Shown in pieces: positions 11,477-58,554 of a DNA stretch of 64,000 bases. Position numbers and translations under genes: made by a program. Origin of the DNA: Natronorubrum tibetense GA33 (lineage in GTDB: Archaea; Halobacteriota; Halobacteria; Halobacteriales; Natrialbaceae); NCBI RefSeq assembly GCF_000383975.1, contig NZ_KB913020.1, forward strand, positions 1 to 64,000, written 5' to 3'. Within the stretch, counting starts at the first letter, position 1, and the number at the start of each line of letters is the position of its first letter. The notes beneath the pieces were generated by a model. The model was not told the origin of the DNA. It saw only the letters and a program-made list of their open reading frames with translations, and ran no database searches.

Positions 11477-11580
11477 CCCACTCCACGGCTTCCGGAGCTT
11501 CCAATAAAAGAATGTTTGCGGACCCTCCCACCCCGCTCAACGGAGTCGATACCCTGTGCTAACAGCGGAAGCAGTGGTGT
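11477..11580. repeat. inverted pair of origin-box-like elements, copy A (left island border)
   Basis: The forward element at 11477-11502 includes CCACGGCTTCCGGAGCTTCC. The reverse element at 11559-11580 includes AACAGCGGAAGCAGTGG. Between them GGACCCTCCCACCCC at 11520-11534 parallels copy B. The same layout recurs at 16336-16498 in the same orientation, so the pair brackets the 5-kb island. Each element has a C-rich string followed by TTCC and a short dyad, the general shape of haloarchaeal origin recognition boxes, though the sequence differs from the boxes at 51-53 kb. Function is not established. Confidence 0.55.
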
Positions 11581-11608
11581 AGATTCAGGTTGCCATCCAG
11601 GGTGTTCG

Positions 11609-12080
11609 TCAATTCTGGCGCTGTTCCAGTTCCTCGATTCGCTCGTCTTTGGCGTCGACCGTCCGCTCGAGTTGGGCACCCCGATCCTGTCGGCGCTGTT
11701 CGTGAGTGTTGATTTCCTCGAGATCGTCCACGAGGTCCTCCGAGACGGATTTGAGATCCGGTCGTTCGAACTCCTCGAGTCCCGGCGTCGCACCCGCGTC
11801 AAACGTGCGCTTGCGCGTGAACTGGACCCGGTCGATCGACGCGTTCCAATCGGCCTGGACGAATGCCTCTCCGTCTCGGAGATCGGCCACGCGGTCGCGA
11901 TACTCGGTGTCGGCGACCCGACCGACGACTTTGGTGTCGTTCTCCCACGTGAGTCGGGGCCAGACAAGCCAATTGGCCTGTGTGATGAAGTCCTTCTTAA
12001 CATCGGCCGGTCGCTGGGAGATCCCGACGATTCCGAGTCCGTGCTGACGGCCGCGCTTTCCGATGTTGAAACCGAACTGC
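11609..12080 (-). pseudogene. truncated HerA-like ATPase (C-terminal part only)
   Basis: An open frame of about 155 codons closely matches the middle of the ATPase at 145-1884: HGLGIVGISQRPADVKKDF, ITQANWLVWPRLTW, KRTFDAGATPGLEEFERPDLKS and the start of the coiled coil. It then stops at 11609 after EELEQRQN. The first 200 or so residues, with Walker A and Walker B, are missing. Similarity ends abruptly near 12080, where AT-rich sequence begins. The C-terminal winged helix is also missing. This is a broken paralogue, not a recent copy, since many residues differ. It may mark where the island joined the chromosome. Confidence 0.8.
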
Positions 12081-12084
12081 CCGA

Positions 12085-12367
12085 TTATAGAGTCTGGTCT
12101 TGCGTTTTATGCAATAGAACATTTTAGAGACGGCACGCCCTTCTGCTTCAACCTTATCTGAATACCGCCAAACGTGTGCACCAAATTCTATAGTTGGGTT
12201 TATTGTAACAAATAAATGGTCTATACTCACACTCAAACAATACTAACTACTGAAATATTTTGAGATGTAATAAAATATGTCTAACCAGACGCTCAAAAAT
12301 TGGAAACAATAACTATATTATATAGTACGTTAACTATATAGGTATATATGTCTATTTTTAATATGTA
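12085..12367. other. AT-rich gap, left part of the foreign insert
   Basis: No gene is visible. The base composition drops sharply from the GC-rich flank, with runs such as ATATTATATAGTACG near 12313. A promoter for the exported protein at 12368 probably lies in 12290-12360, but several TATA-like words compete. The junction CCGATTATAGA at 12078-12088 is the exact inverse of the sequence at the left end of the IS630 element (15193-15203). Confidence 0.55.
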
Positions 12368-13234
12368 ATGATTGGAAATAGAGATAATTCAACCAGGAGA
12401 AATGTGCTGAAAACAGTAACCGCATTTGGTGCAGTTGGAGCTGTCCCTACAATTAGTACAGCCTCGGAGGGTGGTAGAAATGTTGGTGGTATCCTAGAAC
12501 AGGCGCGTAAGATAGGAGATAATGCGGGACAAGATGCACGCCAAAATTATCTTGAGGCGCATGACATGGAATCCACGTACGTTCAGCATCAATATTTCGC
12601 GGAAGAGGAGCCAGATGACATAAGTGCACAGGCACCTAGTGGCTATTGCATACAACCAACTTCATGTGATGATCCATTTATTGATGCAACTCTTTCGCTT
12701 GTTGCCCCAATGTGGTCAGACTATTATATCGCAGATTTAAGTGTGAGGTACAAATATATGAAAAATGCTAACGTATATCAGGGGCCAGAACCCCCAGATG
12801 ATCTAGCCGCACTTATTTGGCAACAAAATCGATGGGAACTAAGAGATCAACAAGACATTCCAGATTCGACGAATACAGGTGAATATACTGAATGGGATGA
12901 AGGGAGTTGGAATGAAGAGGGGCTCGCATTCCATGTGGACTCATATAAGCGAGCTGCAGATAGTGGAAATACTACTACTACTGGTCCACCAGATGAATAT
13001 GAATGGAGTATGAGTCTGGGTGTAGCGGCGTATGTTGTACCTGGAAGCGAATTTGAGGAAAGTGATAATATAAACGCAAAATATTATTACACTTGGGACA
13101 CGTTTAATATTTATGATGTTGGTGTCGCTTTCCCATGGGCTGTGGATATCACTGCAACAGGTTCCTCAAATAAAGAGGATCTACAAACTGAAGTTGATGA
13201 AACAACATTGAGTGTGAGTTTAGACGATGTATAG
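12368..13234 (+). CDS. Tat-exported protein of unknown function, AT-rich gene
   Basis: 288 residues. The N-terminus STRRNVLKTVTAFGAVGAVP is a twin-arginine signal, with probable cleavage near TASEG, so the folded protein is exported. The mature part is acidic, rich in Trp and Tyr, and has two Cys (CIQPTSCDD) that could form a disulfide. No lipobox or catalytic motif is seen. The gene uses many A/T-ending codons, unlike the rest of the window, which points to recent transfer. The convergent neighbour encodes a Tat lipoprotein of the same composition. The signal type and the end pattern (FNIYDVGVAFPW) recall halocin-type precursors, but that is a weak impression and I assign no function. Confidence 0.75.
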   Translation: MIGNRDNSTRRNVLKTVTAFGAVGAVPTISTASEGGRNVGGILEQARKIGDNAGQDARQNYLEAHDMESTYVQHQYFAEEEPDDISAQAPSGYCIQPTSCDDPFIDATLSLVAPMWSDYYIADLSVRYKYMKNANVYQGPEPPDDLAALIWQQNRWELRDQQDIPDSTNTGEYTEWDEGSWNEEGLAFHVDSYKRAADSGNTTTTGPPDEYEWSMSLGVAAYVVPGSEFEESDNINAKYYYTWDTFNIYDVGVAFPWAVDITATGSSNKEDLQTEVDETTLSVSLDDV

Positions 13235-13264
13235 ACATTGACTGTTTAAGACTTTATTCTATTC

Positions 13265-13699
13265 TCAACAATCGTACCACTGGTCAACCGTTCCATCTTG
13301 ATTTAAGGTCATTCCGATATCCCCCATATCGCAGTCGCTACCTCGTGGATGATTGGGCGTGTATTCCCAAGATTTAGAGTGGCCATTTGAAGTAAATATG
13401 TTGACTTCTAGTGGTTCCTGAGTAATATCCCCCGCTCTGCCAAATTGATCGGTGTCAAGTGAAAATACGTGACTAAACAAGTGTTCGTCTTCATCATCAG
13501 TTAAGAGAACTGCTACCTCTACCGGTTGTCCAGAAGCGTTATCAACGAGAACTTCAATTTCATCTTCGCTAGCCCCAATTTCAGACGGAAAATAGGTACA
13601 ACCTGCGACTGTTGTGCAAGTAATGACACTAACGCCGCCTAGTAAGCCTCTTCGAGATAAAACCGGTCTTGATTGTTTTGTTGATCTAATACCGTCCAT
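13265..13699 (-). CDS. small Tat lipoprotein, AT-rich gene
   Basis: 144 residues from the ATG at 13699. The leader SRRGLLGGVSVITCTTVAGC joins a twin-arginine motif to a lipobox ending in Cys, so the protein should be exported folded and lipid-anchored outside. The mature part has an Ig-like feel (EIEVLVDNASGQPVEVAVLL) and a C-terminal Cys pair. An upstream extension to 13804 is open but lacks haloarchaeal character. It converges with the Tat-exported protein, 30 bp between stops, and shares its low GC. A partner role, for example self-protection from the exported protein, is a guess from context only. Confidence 0.75.
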   Translation of the reverse strand: MDGIRSTKQSRPVLSRRGLLGGVSVITCTTVAGCTYFPSEIGASEDEIEVLVDNASGQPVEVAVLLTDDEDEHLFSHVFSLDTDQFGRAGDITQEPLEVNIFTSNGHSKSWEYTPNHPRGSDCDMGDIGMTLNQDGTVDQWYDC

Positions 13700-13970
13700 A
13701 ACTAATGCTGTATTTAGTGGGATAAAACCCTTGGGCTGATTCTGTCTCACTCCTCGTATCGGCCAGTTCAGCTTGAATTTTGTCGAACAAGAACTACACC
13801 GCAACTGTTGATGAAACTTTGTACTTAACTCCCCCTTGCCGGACTCTCGCTTTTAAAAACTCTACAAAACTTTAATATCTTGGTGCTGAACGTGTATTGC
13901 GAGAGGTGGAATGTAGAGACCCCTCGTTCTCAAATTGCTTTAGCAATGCTCAAGCAGAAACTGCTGATCA

Positions 13971-14474
13971 ATGGGGGAGTACGGATGTGAACGTCCGAAG
14001 CTTCTTGAGTTAGTACTAAGTACTAAGGATGTGGCGAACCAGATCAAGTCTTCCGGCGCTGCGGGGCTCGCGTTGCAGGTCACCGAACCCGCACGGGCGG
14101 CCGGACTCGTTGAGGAAGACGCTGACGGCGACGCAACCGAGCTCGCCGACGTACGCGTATTCGCGTTCGACCACCTCTTGCTCGTGATCGATATCGATGC
14201 AGTCTCGACGCCGGACGTGGCGGAGGTAGTCGTTGCAGCGGCGACCGACACCGACAGCGTGTATCGAGCGGTCGACGCGACCGTCCAGATCGCCGGCCAC
14301 GGGTATCAGGTCCAGTTGCCGCCTGCGTCCGATGCAGGATTCACTGAAGGGGATCGGGCTCCGTGCCACCCAGCGCCTGGTAATGTCGCGATCTCGAGAG
14401 ACGACGGTACGTCTGCTGTGGCCGATGCCGGTCGACTGGCTGGTGACCTGGTGGCGATTCGAAAAGAGCTGTAG
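13971..14474 (+). CDS. hypothetical protein, GC-rich
   Basis: Up to 167 residues. Codon use returns here to the GC-rich host style, and the sequence (VEEDADGDATELADVRVFAF, VDATVQIAGHGYQVQLPP) looks like a genuine alpha/beta protein, but I do not recognise it. The start is uncertain: the ATG at 13971 gives an N-terminus rich in Cys and basic residues, and a GTG at 14031 is an alternative. The reverse gene at 14476 ends just after its stop. Upstream 13700-13970 is AT-rich and holds no clear gene. It may be a fragment of a larger protein whose 5' part was lost when the insert arrived. Confidence 0.45.
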   Translation: MGEYGCERPKLLELVLSTKDVANQIKSSGAAGLALQVTEPARAAGLVEEDADGDATELADVRVFAFDHLLLVIDIDAVSTPDVAEVVVAAATDTDSVYRAVDATVQIAGHGYQVQLPPASDAGFTEGDRAPCHPAPGNVAISRDDGTSAVADAGRLAGDLVAIRKEL

Positions 14475-14475
14475 T

Positions 14476-14829
14476 TCACTCGCCAGTAGAAGGCCGCTCG
14501 AGGTCTCGCTCCGCAATCTCTACCCGTTCAAAGATATTCGCGCTACGGGTCGGATCTCGGCTCCCGTAAGCCAGTTCGACGTTCTCCCGGCCTTCGAACT
14601 CAACCAGTGACCCGATATCTTCGCCTTCCCGCGCTTCGACAAGCAGTCGGTCCCCATCGCGAGCGACCAGAGAGACCAGGGATGCTCGTCGAACGGCGGG
14701 TATCGAGTCGTCCATATCGTCGGGCGTGAGCCAGAGAAAGACCGTCGACTCGAGGTCGTCGGCCGGGTTCTTGAGAACGTCCTCGAGCGTTCGTTCGCGT
14801 TTTCGGTCGTCGTTTTCACTACTGGGCAT
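14476..14829 (-). CDS. hypothetical protein
   Basis: 117 residues, basic and acidic N-terminus (MPSSENDDRKRERTLEDVLK) followed by what looks like a small beta-rich domain (SLVSLVARDGDRLLVEAREG, GSLVEFEGRENVELAYG). Not recognised. Its ATG lies 11 bp inside the end of the broken gene upstream, so both belonged to one operon, probably of a provirus or plasmid. The GC-rich codon use matches halophile genes. Confidence 0.55.
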   Translation of the reverse strand: MPSSENDDRKRERTLEDVLKNPADDLESTVFLWLTPDDMDDSIPAVRRASLVSLVARDGDRLLVEAREGEDIGSLVEFEGRENVELAYGSRDPTRSANIFERVEIAERDLERPSTGE

Positions 14830-15198
14830 GTTCAGTTACCTCCGGTTCTGACTCTCTGTCTTGTCGATCGAACCGATTCAGCGTCGTGTTCGTGACGTGG
14901 TGGGCGTACTGCAGTTGGTTCGCGTCGTGCTCAAGCGGCTGGCCGTCCTCATCGAAGCCGACGTAGATCGGGTACTGTCCGTCTGCCCCGCCTCGAGCGC
15001 CTCGACCTGCCGGTAGTCCTCGCCGTACCAGGACATACTCGAGACCGACACGTTGTCGAGATGGTTCATCAGCATGTAGCGGTAGGCCGCCTCGGTCGCG
15101 AACGACCGTGTTTCGTACAGCAGCGTCCAGCCGACGTGTTCCCACTCGTCGCCGGTCTTGTCGGTGATCCGGGCACGCCAGAGTGCGTCAATTCTATA
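14819..15198 (-). pseudogene. gene broken by the IS630 element and a frameshift
   Basis: From the IS border a frame reads DALWRARITDKTGDEWEHVG, then YETRSFATEAAYRYMLMNHL and SMSWYGEDYRQVEALEAG. Near 14996 the sensible reading shifts to another frame, DGQYPIYVGFDEDGQPLE, and ends at 14819. Both parts look like one halophile protein, so the gene has lost its 5' end to the IS and also has a frameshift. No matching 5' part is visible on the other side of the IS. Function unknown; such proteins are typical of plasmid or provirus regions. Confidence 0.7.
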
Positions 15199-15211
15199 AT
15201 CGGACTAATAC

Positions 15212-15745
15212 TCAAGGACATAAGTACGTAAAGACGCTCGGCGGTTCAATGGTGTCAAGCGCGGTCAGTGCAGCCCCTTGAAGTTTATCCAGTGTGTCGA
15301 ACAGGCGGTTGCCCAGTGCTTGGTTGAGACGTCGCCAGCACTCTTCCACGGGGTTCAGCTCCGGTGAACCCCGTGGAAGGTAGCACAGTTCGATCGGGGT
15401 TCTTTCGGCGTATTCCTGCACCTTGTTCGCCGTGAAATAGGAAGCGTTGTCCAAGACGACGCAGATCTTGTCGCCGAACTCGGTTTGGAGAGCATCGAGA
15501 AACCGAATTGTGGTGTCGCTGTTGAAATTTTCCTCACACGGCAAAAAGAACGTCTCGCCGCTGTCGCTGACCGCCCCAAGGAGTTTGATACTGTCCCACG
15601 CGCCCGTCACCGGGAGTGACGGGCGCTCTCCTTCTGGAAACCACGCGTAGATCAGCGTTGAGAGCACCTGACGCGTCTGATCAATGGTCAGGAGCGTGTA
15701 TTCGTCGTCCAAGTTGTCGAGCTTTTTTTGAACCCGTCTTTCCAC
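15212..15745 (-). CDS. IS630 transposase, catalytic DDE frame (OrfB)
   Basis: About 170 residues. It carries the three catalytic acids of the IS630/Tc1 superfamily: Asp in LLTIDQT, Asp in CVVLDNASYF and Glu in SPELNPVEECWRRLN. The open frame begins upstream of the OrfA slip site, so it has no need of its own start. The two frames overlap by 58 bp around a run of seven A residues (minus strand), which fits programmed frameshifting and makes an intact element likely. A simple inactivating mutation is the alternative. Confidence 0.8.
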   Translation of the reverse strand: MERRVQKKLDNLDDEYTLLTIDQTRQVLSTLIYAWFPEGERPSLPVTGAWDSIKLLGAVSDSGETFFLPCEENFNSDTTIRFLDALQTEFGDKICVVLDNASYFTANKVQEYAERTPIELCYLPRGSPELNPVEECWRRLNQALGNRLFDTLDKLQGAALTALDTIEPPSVFTYLCP

Positions 15746-16233
15746 GCTTCCTGAGCTCGTTCGTCGGACTTGTGGAACTCCGGCCGGGCTGTCTTCCAGG
15801 ACAGCCCGGCCTCAGACATCAGTCGTCGGATGTGTCGTTCGCAGTACTCGACACCGAACTCCTCAACGAGATAATGACGAGCGAGTGGAACAGACCACGC
15901 AGGCGCGTCAAGCCCAATTTCCTCTGGTGATTTGTGGAGCACTTCAACGAACTGCTCGTACTCTTCGTCGGAGAGCTCTGAGGGTCTTCCCGACCGGTGT
16001 TCGTCGTAGACGACCTCCTCGAACGGCTCGTCGGCGAGCCGTTCGAGTCGGTCAAGCCACTGCGAGAGCCAGGCAGCAGTATATCCATACCGTTCAGCGA
16101 CCTCTTCTAACGTCGCACCGTCTTCTTCGAGATAATTGATTGCCGCCATTAGCCGCTGTGTCGGCTTCTTCCCCTCGACCTCCGCCAAGACCTGGCGGAG
16201 GTCTTCAATAGAGACGTTGTCGAGAGAGTTCAT
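15688..16233 (-). CDS. IS630 transposase, N-terminal frame (OrfA)
   Basis: 181 residues. Two helix-turn-helix regions: GATLEEVAERYGYTAAWLSQ (about 39-58) and the winged-helix-like second part typical of IS630/Tc1 enzymes, with the linker HRSGRPSELSDEEYEQF. It binds the element ends. The frame runs past the A7 run near 15722-15728 and ends at 15688. At that run the ribosome could move into OrfB, which continues the same protein (KKLDNLDDEY...). Without the shift OrfA would be a DNA-binding protein that may regulate transposition. Confidence 0.8.
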   Translation of the reverse strand: MNSLDNVSIEDLRQVLAEVEGKKPTQRLMAAINYLEEDGATLEEVAERYGYTAAWLSQWLDRLERLADEPFEEVVYDEHRSGRPSELSDEEYEQFVEVLHKSPEEIGLDAPAWSVPLARHYLVEEFGVEYCERHIRRLMSEAGLSWKTARPEFHKSDERAQEAWKDGFKKSSTTWTTNTRS

Positions 16234-16335
16234 AATCGATCAATGTTGTTCCTCGTTTAAAATACTTTTAGCCGGTAGTATAAGACCGCGTGCTCCTGAA
16301 GTTAAGAATAACAGTTCTCGAGCGGTATCTCTGTG

Positions 16336-16498
16336 CACACCACTGTTTCCGGAACTTCCGCAGAGAGTATATTTAGGACCCACTCACCCCACCAGTTCCG
16401 TTGTTAATACTGACTGATTGTTCCCCCATCGCGGAATGAAGCGTTGTCGATGACCCATCCCCTCTCGCAAACTAACAGCGGAAGCAGTGGGGTGGGTC
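16336..16498. repeat. origin-box-like elements, copy B (right island border)
   Basis: Three related elements: forward at 16336-16360 (CACACCACTGTTTCCGGAAC), forward at 16383-16408 (ACCCCACCAGTTCCGTTGTT) and reverse at 16470-16498 (AACAGCGGAAGCAGTGGGG). Each has a C-rich string, then TTCC and a partial dyad. The order and orientation match copy A at 11477-11580, and AACAGCGGAAGCAGTGG is identical in both. No gene lies in 16276-16583. Pairs of inverted boxes around AT-richer DNA are the layout of haloarchaeal replication origins; an orphan plasmid- or virus-type origin is possible. Confidence 0.55.
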
Positions 16499-50906: not shown

Positions 50907-50931
50907 CACACCCCTCATTTTCAGTGAAAAC
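50907..50931 (+). promoter_or_regulatory. origin recognition box 1
   Basis: CACACCCCTCATTTTCAGTG and AAAAC follow: a C-rich string plus a TTTTCAGTGAAAA dyad. It is one of five near-identical boxes around orc1. Confidence 0.85.
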
Positions 50932-51097
50932 AAACGACCATCGACGACTCAGGGCAACACAATAGTGACGGATGTGTGAAACTGATCGAGGATAATCTAT
51001 ACCATCTTTTCTAGTCGAAACATATTCGAGAACAGCTGTTCTCCGATAATCGGAGAATCCTTGATTAGATGCTCGTCTCCCTATAGAAACGAATCGG

Positions 51098-51121
51098 CAC
51101 ACCCCTCGTTTTCAGTGAAAG
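51098..51121 (+). promoter_or_regulatory. origin recognition box 2
   Basis: CACACCCCTCGTTTTCAGTG followed by AAAG, in the same orientation as box 1 and 37 bp from the 3' end of orc1. Confidence 0.85.
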
Positions 51122-51157
51122 AGTAGTCGGAATCCCTTTGGTGTCGATGAAGAGTAC

Positions 51158-52462
51158 CTACGACACTGACTCGGACAGTTTGTTTAAAACATCGCGCTGG
51201 GTTTCCGAGGAGTTGACACAGGCAGACATGACGATGTCCGGGTCGTGAAGGAGACGATGAATTCGATAACTCCCTTCACTTTTTCCACCACCTGTATGCC
51301 TGCTCTCCGTAATTTCGGGAAGAGTCCACTTTTTCATCAGATCGAGAATGCGCTGATGAGTAAGAGATTCGCCGGTGGCGATTTCAGCGACGATGCAGTA
51401 CACATCATACAGTTCACCAGTCGAGAAGGAATCCGTCGAGCGCGTCTTAGTTAGATATGCTAATGCGTAGAGTGCGTATCTGGAATGGGGCGTCCCGTTC
51501 TTAATAATCTGGACCGATCGGTTCAGATCGCTGTACTCGTCAGCTTCACGCACATGCTCTTCGGTGACCCGTTTGCGGTCGTCTTTCTCTGCGAGTTTCC
51601 CGGCAGATCGAAGAATATCGAGCGCGCGACGGGCATCACCGTGATCGCGGGCAGCGAGCGCGGCGGTTAGTTCGATTACGCCATCTTCGAGAACACCGTC
51701 TCTGAACGCATCGATCCGACGCTCGAGGATCGCCTGCAGTTGATTCGCATCGTACGGAGGAAAAATGATCGGATCATCCTGAAAGCTTGAAGCAACGCGT
51801 TCATCGGGCGCATCGGAATAGTCTGTCTTGTTGCTGATTGCGATGACTGAAATGTAACATCCCGTCTTCCCCGCTTCCTCCGATCGAGAGAGTTTCGAGA
51901 GAATTTCGTCGGTATCGTCGCCGAGTTTGTCGATTTCGTCGAGGATCACGATCAAAGAATCGGACTTGTGAAGCAGTCCGTCACCGCCCCAGAGCGCGTC
52001 GTAGTACCGACTCGTCCCAACACCTTCTTTCGGAATGTACCTATCTGGATCGATTACGTTACGGACTTCGAACGCCATCTTTCGCGCTGCTCGTGTCTCG
52101 GTATTGTACTGGTCACAGTCGACATAGGCCGCCGTCAGAGTCGTTCCCTGCATTTGTGCAATGCCTCGAGCACGGCCAGTGACGTGTTTCGCAACGAGCG
52201 ATTTTCCAGTTCCGGTCTTCCCAAAAAGAAAGCCGCTCTCCGGAGGGTTGCCGAATGCAGCCGGTTTCAACAACGTTTCCACGGTTTCGATCTCCCGGTC
52301 GCGACCAACGATCCGGTCTTTTTGTGGAACATGTTGTGGTCGAAGCAGTTCTCGGCGGCGAAAAATAGACGTAGTTTCGTCCGTCATCGGATCATCTTGA
52401 AGATCCTCGATAGACGGAGTCGGAATCGGATCGTTACCCATTACCAGAATGATTTCAACCAT
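51158..52462 (-). CDS. orc1: Orc1/Cdc6 replication initiator
   Basis: 434 residues. AAA+ core with GKTGTGKSLVAKHV (Walker A, near 80), VILDEIDKLGDD (Walker B), and sensor 2 in DHGDARRALDILRSAG (Arg). The C-terminal 85 residues form a winged helix. The start is either the ATG at 52462 or one at 52438. It should bind the boxes flanking the gene and load MCM. Its position between two groups of boxes is the usual layout of haloarchaeal origins. Chromosomes here carry several such genes, so it need not be the main initiator. Confidence 0.95.
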   Translation of the reverse strand: MVEIILVMGNDPIPTPSIEDLQDDPMTDETTSIFRRRELLRPQHVPQKDRIVGRDREIETVETLLKPAAFGNPPESGFLFGKTGTGKSLVAKHVTGRARGIAQMQGTTLTAAYVDCDQYNTETRAARKMAFEVRNVIDPDRYIPKEGVGTSRYYDALWGGDGLLHKSDSLIVILDEIDKLGDDTDEILSKLSRSEEAGKTGCYISVIAISNKTDYSDAPDERVASSFQDDPIIFPPYDANQLQAILERRIDAFRDGVLEDGVIELTAALAARDHGDARRALDILRSAGKLAEKDDRKRVTEEHVREADEYSDLNRSVQIIKNGTPHSRYALYALAYLTKTRSTDSFSTGELYDVYCIVAEIATGESLTHQRILDLMKKWTLPEITESRHTGGGKSEGSYRIHRLLHDPDIVMSACVNSSETQRDVLNKLSESVS

Positions 52463-52480
52463 CTATAATAAATGTGTCGG

Positions 52481-52499
52481 ACCACATTTTCAGTGAAAG
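52481..52499 (+). promoter_or_regulatory. origin recognition box 3, degenerate
   Basis: ACCACATTTTCAGTGAAAG keeps the dyad but lacks the full C-string. It lies 19 bp upstream of the orc1 start and may serve for autoregulation. Confidence 0.65.
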
Positions 52500-52559
52500 T
52501 TGGGAAAGTTTGTGCCATGGACACTATACAGAGACTACAGATGATCGATAACCGATTAC

Positions 52560-52583
52560 CCCACCCCTCATTTTCAGTGAAAC
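52560..52583 (+). promoter_or_regulatory. origin recognition box 4
   Basis: CCACCCCTCATTTTCAGTGA followed by AAC. Same orientation as boxes 1-3. It bounds the AT-rich segment on its left. Confidence 0.85.
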
Positions 52584-52740
52584 AAGATCGCATTCGATTC
52601 AAATACGGAATGAGTATTGGGTGATATGTGATATTGAAAGTTATCTAACATAAACCGACCTACTCACTTCCGCTCTCTCCGTCGATCCTTCGTTACACGT
52701 GATAGCAACCAAACGAGCCTTCGCACTATACGTTCGAGAG

Positions 52741-52764
52741 CTTTCACTGAAAACGAGGGGTGCG
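52741..52764 (-). promoter_or_regulatory. origin recognition box 5, inverted
   Basis: CTTTCACTGAAAACGAGGGG followed by TGCG is the reverse complement of the other boxes. With box 4 it encloses 52584-52740, as in known haloarchaeal origins. Confidence 0.85.
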
Positions 52765-57186: not shown

Positions 57187-58554
57187 TCAGTCGACGTCGA
57201 CACGCGTTCCGTAACCCGATTCGCCGACCACGTCGCCATCCTCGTAGACGACCTCGCCGCGGACGACCGTCGACACCACGTTTCCGGTGAACGACTCACC
57301 CACGAACGGCGTGACGCAGTTCTTCGAGTGGAGTTCGTCGCTCTCCTCGAGCGACCACTCTCGGTCGGGATCGACGACCGTGAAGTCGGCGTCCGTACCC
57401 ACCTGCAGCGAGCCCTTCTGGGGGTACATGCCCCAGATCTGGGCCGGTCGGGTCGAATGGCGGCGGACCCACTCCTCGAGCGTGAGTCGGCCCTGGTCCA
57501 CGAAGGAAAGCATCACCGGGACTTCGGTCTCGAGACCAACAAACCCTGAAATGGCCTCCCAGGTGTTGCCGAACGGGTCGTCAACTTTCTTCTCTTCGGG
57601 GGTGTGGGGAGCATGATCGGTCGCGATACAGTCGATCGCACCGTCGTCGATCCCGACCTCCCAGAGCTTCTCGCGCTCCTCCGCGTTCCGAATGGGGGGC
57701 TGGATCCGCGCCGGATTCCCCTTCTCACGCATGACCTCCTCGGTGAACCAGAGGTAATGAGGTGTCGTCTCGGCAGTCACGTCCACGCCGCGATCTTTCC
57801 CGCGGGCGACGGCCTCGGCGGCCGATCCCGAGGAGACGTGGTACATGTGGATTTTCGCGCCGGTCTCCTCGGCGAAGGTGATCATCCGTTCGACGGCCTC
57901 GCGCTCGGCGATCACGGGGCGGGAGTGGGAGTGATCGATCGGATCGTTCCGCCCTTCGGCCTGGAACTGCTCCGTGTAGTGATCGATGATCTCCCCGTTT
58001 TCCTCGTGGAATCCGAGACGTTTGCCCGTCTCCCGAATCTTCTCCATCGCCTCGAGGATCTCTCCGTCGTTCGGCGGCGGGACATCCCCCACCGTCGATC
58101 CGAGGAAGATCTTGTAGCCGAGCGCGCCGGCCTCGTCAATAGCCGGGATCAAGTCGAGGTTCTCGCTCGTGACGACGACGTAGCTTTGAAAGTCGACGTG
58201 AGCCGACGCCTCACCGCGCTCGAATTTTAACTCGAGATGCTCGGGACGGTCGATGACGGGATCAGTGTTCGGCATCCCGACGACGGTCGTCACGCCACCG
58301 GCCGCGGCCGCTCGCGTCGCAGACTCCCAGTCTTCCTTGTACTCGAGGCCGGGTTCGCGGTTATGAATGTGGCAATCGACGATTCCCGGCACGAGGACGT
58401 TTCCGTCGCCGTCGACGATGCGATCCGCGTCGGGCAGGCGGTCGCTCCGACCGACGGCGACGATCTCACCGTCCTCGACGGCGACACCCGAGTTCGGCGT
58501 CCGCCCGGCGGGCGTCACCACGGTACAGTTGCGCACGACGAGGTCCACAGTCAT
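57187..58554 (-). CDS. pyrC: dihydroorotase
   Basis: 455 residues from the ATG at 58554. Amidohydrolase fold with two metals: DCHIHNREPGLEYKEDW (HxH), GYKIFLGST with the likely carboxylated Lys, GFHEENGE and MYHVSSGSAAE (two His), and CIATDHAPHTPEEK (Asp). Closes the ring in pyrimidine synthesis; its product is the substrate of PyrD at 55688. The two genes face each other across the 76-residue gene. Class I type (long). Confidence 0.92.
   Translation of the reverse strand: MTVDLVVRNCTVVTPAGRTPNSGVAVEDGEIVAVGRSDRLPDADRIVDGDGNVLVPGIVDCHIHNREPGLEYKEDWESATRAAAAGGVTTVVGMPNTDPVIDRPEHLELKFERGEASAHVDFQSYVVVTSENLDLIPAIDEAGALGYKIFLGSTVGDVPPPNDGEILEAMEKIRETGKRLGFHEENGEIIDHYTEQFQAEGRNDPIDHSHSRPVIAEREAVERMITFAEETGAKIHMYHVSSGSAAEAVARGKDRGVDVTAETTPHYLWFTEEVMREKGNPARIQPPIRNAEEREKLWEVGIDDGAIDCIATDHAPHTPEEKKVDDPFGNTWEAISGFVGLETEVPVMLSFVDQGRLTLEEWVRRHSTRPAQIWGMYPQKGSLQVGTDADFTVVDPDREWSLEESDELHSKNCVTPFVGESFTGNVVSTVVRGEVVYEDGDVVGESGYGTRVDVD

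Follow-up and report, generated by a model that had tools for sequence, protein, structure and literature searches.

The region at positions 50907-52764 of the window (the whole 64,000-nt stretch analysed here, which forms the first 64 kb of C4, a contig of 214,970 bp and one of five in the genome) can with high confidence be regarded as an orc-ORB origin unit of the haloarchaeal type. In our interpretation it serves a plasmid-like replicon as a secondary, accessory origin, and the core origin would be located at 138.0-140.8 kb of C4; we place the probability of this interpretation at about 0.7. The criteria for haloarchaeal origins adjacent to orc/cdc6 were taken from the literature (PMC3528665), and every sequence feature on which they are based is found in the module. 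It possesses an intact Orc1/Cdc6 that exceeds 300 aa and comprises AAA+ and winged-helix domains, intergenic regions on both sides of the gene that carry repeated ORBs with a G-string (four full boxes), an inverted ORB pair (boxes 4 and 5) around an AT-rich element, in which the sequence motif of the relatives is absent, and an ORB sequence linked in its specificity to the Orc family. The anatomy of the module, the linked inheritance of Orc and boxes, a fixed promoter geometry, purifying selection on Orc and the dispensability of the module in sister plasmids are direct observations, and the original prediction that the locus has the known form of a haloarchaeal orc-ORB origin is borne out by its layout and by the conservation of the boxes together with their own Orc in relatives. 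For firing of the predicted origin during normal growth the chances appear roughly balanced.

The core TTTTCAGTGAAA occurs in five exact copies in the 64-kb window, where none is expected, and every copy lies between 50918 and 52753. The full CACACCCCTC half is present in four of these five boxes around orc1/cdc6. Boxes 1, 2, 4 and 5 fit CACACCCCTCNTTTTCAGTGAAA with 0-1 mismatches (no matches in 100 shuffles), and their G-string reads ACCCCTC/GAGGGGT. Two of these full ORBs are located downstream of orc on the plus strand, namely box 1 at 50907-50929 (CACACCCCTCATTTTCAGTGAAA; no mismatches, with none expected by chance) and box 2 at 51098-51120 (likewise without mismatches). The other two constitute the inverted pair, with box 4 (52560-52582, plus strand) as left arm, for which an equivalent is present in the intact relatives, and box 5 (52742-52764, minus strand) as right arm, which matches the pattern and is likewise found in relatives. 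Box 3 (52476-52498, plus strand) is a half box, in which the core half is intact and the C/G-rich half with the G-string is degenerate (6 of 23 positions mismatched). The prediction of five boxes with a common two-part pattern consequently holds for the core (5/5), but for the pattern as a whole only four of the five boxes conform. A scan of the 4.93-Mb genome at up to three mismatches recovered no other near-exact copies of the full boxes (control: 0), and two relatives with three mismatches (ACCCCTCGTTCAGAGTGAAA) are located on the chromosome, on either side of another orc. No haloarchaeal paper naming the box was found in a literature search for its sequence.

The orc1/cdc6 initiator gene (51158-52462, minus strand) is an intact open reading frame of 434 aa. 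It matches TIGR02928 (E=4e-109), possesses the Cdc6_lid and Cdc6_C (winged-helix) domains, and is similar to the solved archaeal Cdc6 homolog 1 (2QBY_A, E=5e-48). Orthologues with 87-89% identity start at a methionine corresponding to the ATG at 52441, the eighth codon of the reading frame. This ATG is probably the true start, because the spacing of box 3 and of TTTAT to the start codon is fixed in the orthologues. For Orc, dN/dS is estimated at about 0.03 at a nearly saturated dS, which indicates strong purifying selection, and the protein encoded in the window is therefore very probably functional. The window Orc at the same time has the greatest branch length within its close clade (0.12 vs at most 0.058 in the other members) and displays 10 private substitutions at sites invariant in the other members.

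Boxes and Orc are inherited together. We surveyed 125 Natrialbaceae genomes for the box pattern at up to one mismatch, with the reversed pattern as a control, and found it in 21 genomes (control: 0/125). Boxes are present in every one of the 14 genomes that encode an orthologous Orc (81-100% identity) and in 7 of the 111 that do not. This agrees with the published finding that Orc families are linked to ORBs of their own (PMC3528665). Of the seven genomes with boxes but no intact orthologue, two (G020 and G073) retain a broken one, and in the remainder the boxes are either orphaned or adjacent to an orc that is not related. The surviving boxes beside broken or missing orc genes in other Natrialbaceae resemble a graveyard of the origin module. 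Relatives with 81-89% Orc identity display the same order and orientation of the boxes, with the full inverted pair of boxes 5 and 4 upstream and the half box 3 next to the gene, and most close relatives have two to four boxes of the same orientation downstream of orc. Even the Haladaptatus relatives (54% Orc identity) keep the order and orientation of the boxes upstream of orc, and the boxes form islands of conservation within otherwise diverged intergenic DNA. In a Halovenus MAG and in G039, whose Orc is 81% identical, some boxes read CAGTGTA instead of CAGTGAA, possibly a case of co-divergence of Orc and box.

The position of the module within its replicon provides insight into its rank. 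Contig C4 is most likely a plasmid, given its synteny with complete plasmids from Haloterrigena, Natronorubrum and related genera, which range in size from about 160 to 400 kb. It carries four orc genes, at 51-52, 87-88, 115-116 and 138-139 kb, each with its own box sequence. The orc at 138 kb, in an origin region (138.0-140.8 kb) with ten boxes of the TTCACCGGAAACGTGGTGTG type, has an orthologue in 11 of 11 syntenic plasmids at 83-88% DNA identity, as would be expected for the core origin of the plasmid family, and its boxes are also found in pHTUR04 and the N. bangense plasmid, the two that were checked. The 52-kb module is present in only one of the same 11 plasmids, that of N. bangense, and among 72,556 plasmid records only four contain orthologues of the window Orc with more than 60% identity. 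The module was not found on the sister plasmid pHTUR04, and in H. turkmenica it resides on the chromosome (contig C1, 2.50 Mb); the plasmid backbone thus replicates without it. The H. turkmenica genome in question, G028, was recognised by its 100% match to the orc of pHTUR04 at identical coordinates. We base its accessory status on this distribution, in which only the N. bangense plasmid shares the module and pHTUR04 lacks it.

A recent horizontal transfer into C4 alone is disfavoured, because the N. bangense module occupies the same syntenic site and its DNA identity of 77% resembles that of the backbone. An older transfer is conceivable in view of the Orc branch length of 0.12. Further sequences related to origins are scattered over the contig. 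A single near-perfect box of the 138-kb origin (GACACCACGTTTCCGGTGAA) lies at 57272-57291, in the 3' end of a dihydroorotase/allantoinase-like gene and far from that origin. At C4:86926-88155 and 88173-88490 an orc with nested inverted ACCCCANCGTTCGAGTG-type boxes around very AT-rich DNA (88252-88311) forms a candidate for another origin on C4, and two directly repeated TACACTGGAAC..GGGG boxes flank the fourth orc (C4:115123-116472).

Boxes 4 and 5 enclose an AT-rich gap of 159 nt (52583-52741), the candidate unwinding element. Its least stable part (52596-52655) ranks within the top 0.27% of the least stable 60-mers of the contig, in accordance with the predicted inversion of the two boxes around an AT-rich stretch. 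The gap is shorter than in the relatives, where it mostly measures 189-228 nt. A conserved AT-rich motif between boxes 5 and 4 (CTTTACCNATACNATAAATAATATAATAA) is common to 12 of the 13 orthologous genome loci, and the Halovenus MAG has a close version of it, but it was not found in the gap of the window. The loss of this motif in the window copy makes dormancy of the origin plausible. We reject the loss as proof of a dead origin and consider it suggestive rather than conclusive, because the motif is missing from relative G039 as well and the Haladaptatus relatives have an unrelated AT sequence between the boxes.

We give the interpretation as a dormant or decaying origin somewhat less than an even chance. 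On this view the module, despite its intact Orc and boxes, would be silent during normal growth owing to a degenerated unwinding element, and replication would be left to the 138-kb origin. Such an origin would perhaps fire only upon loss of the core origin, so that this interpretation overlaps with that of an accessory origin and differs from it in the activity assumed. It draws on the missing motif and the long Orc branch, which also count against the accessory-origin interpretation, as do the shortened gap, the private Orc substitutions and the lack of a skew turning point near 52 kb. It has a precedent in pHM500 of Haloferax mediterranei, where one orc-ORB origin is active and another dormant but activatable (PMC4595724); C4 likewise possesses a second complete orc-ORB unit. 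It is also in line with the skew profile of C4, in which the AT and keto skew extremes are situated at 133 and 34 kb, near the core origin and its antipode, and no turning point is observed near 52 kb. This signal, however, does not recur in pHTUR04 or in the plasmid of N. bangense, and the GC skew of C4, the profile suggested in the original prediction as a check for the origin, is not significant (p=0.32) and likewise shows no turning point there. Skew is therefore weak evidence for the origin position. The dormant interpretation also has to account for the low stability that the gap has retained, for the use of unrelated AT sequences in Haladaptatus and for the strong purifying selection on Orc.

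The alternative that the plasmid replicates mainly from this module, as its active origin, appears improbable. The complete anatomy and the intact Orc would be compatible with it, and five of seven predicted orc-adjacent origins of H. hispanica display autonomous replication activity (PMC3528665), but 10 of the 11 sister plasmids replicate without the module and all share the 138-kb orc. That the boxes are nothing but transcriptional operators of orc, or of the MaoC/thiolase neighbours, and constitute no origin is highly improbable. Box 3 does have a geometry fitting an operator, but four full boxes lie outside the promoter and an inverted pair around AT-rich DNA is the known origin arrangement (PMC3528665, PMC3936714).

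Box 3 stands out among the boxes. It sits just upstream of the TATA-like TTTATTATA of the orc promoter (52464-52475, minus strand), 31 nt upstream of the ATG at 52441, from which we infer a leaderless orc transcript. The spacing is exceptionally regular. In all 13 of the closest orthologues TTTAT begins 31 nt ahead of the ATG, and the box 3 core ends exactly 45 nt ahead of it; for two orthologues of greater distance the latter spacing is 44 nt. The G-string half of the box is degenerate in all of these loci, the 13 close and the two more distant. We interpret this geometry as that of an operator abutting BRE/TATA, and its fixed spacing suggests autoregulation of orc. Box 3 is an unlikely firing site, because the G-strings of the ORBs are essential at oriC1 of H. 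hispanica (PMC3936714).

Taken as an accessory origin, the module may operate as follows, with binding of Orc, autorepression, titration and firing as the inferred steps. Orc would bind the inverted full boxes 4 and 5, unwind the AT-rich DNA between them and load MCM. Orc bound to the half-box 3 beside the TATA element would repress its own promoter, and surplus Orc might be soaked up by boxes 1 and 2, the proposed initiator-titrating pair. A further-reaching and rather doubtful extension is that C4 harbours up to four mutually orthogonal orc-ORB systems, of which the present one is a roving backup origin with an initiator gating itself via a half-ORB devoid of the G-string at a fixed distance from TATA. 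If this were true, the firing of the spare origin would be tied to the level of the initiator and not to the host cycle.

The original prediction also noted that the border elements at 11-16 kb differ from the boxes and that two Orc specificities may coexist. The border element TAACAGCGGAAGCAGTGGGGT is found at 16473 (exact), at 11560 (one mismatch) and, inverted, at 16386 (three mismatches), and matches the published ORB-like TAACAGCGGAAACAGTGGGGTGGGGGGGT (PMC3528665). It occurs in 24 of 125 genomes of the family, where two inverted copies are often separated by about 160-175 nt. Of 12 loci inspected, 10 have an orc within about 1.5 kb, which is closest to the family of the 87-kb orc. No orc is present near the copies in the window (11560-11580, 16386-16406 and 16473-16493), and they therefore appear orphaned; the elements at 11560-16493 flank a stretch of low GC content without orc. 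Probably they are orphan ORBs of another Orc family, left by a lost or decayed origin. The association with an orc of another family in the 10 loci supports a second Orc specificity, and the four orc genes with box sets of their own on C4 alone support the coexistence of several, so that the earlier reading was, if anything, an understatement.

The module adds one more orc-ORB unit to those known, as replicons with multiple origins and Orc-specific boxes have already been described from haloarchaea. Its presence on the chromosome in one species and on a plasmid in another, combined with its absence from sister plasmids, provides a well-controlled natural comparison, to whose value the exceptionally regular promoter half-box contributes. 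Within one family, the locus allows direct tests of how the origins rank, whether Orc regulates itself and whether unwinding requires a particular sequence.

Among characterised systems, oriC2-cdc6E of H. hispanica resembles the module in having the origin upstream of orc and additional ORBs downstream, and oriC2 depends on its own Cdc6 (PMC3936714). Firing of oriC2 is dampened by these downstream ORBs, which probably titrate Cdc6E (PMC3936714). It differs in being chromosomal and in possessing 11 downstream ORBs, in contrast to two here; the comparison is based on layout. More than one orc-ORB origin on a haloarchaeal plasmid is likewise known from oriP1-cdc6L and oriP2-cdc6M of pHM500 (PMC4595724), with which C4, carrying four orc genes, was compared by arrangement, and pHTUR04 is predicted to have three orc origins (PMC3528665). 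The orthologous modules of Haloterrigena turkmenica and its genus mates have the same boxes and the same layout with an Orc about 87-88% identical, but are located on the main contig and have kept the conserved AT-rich motif. The module of the N. bangense plasmid unnamed2 (NZ_CP031307), with an 88% identical Orc annotated only as 'AAA family ATPase', shares both the plasmid family and the syntenic site with that of the window, from which it differs in having retained the AT motif (with three mismatches).
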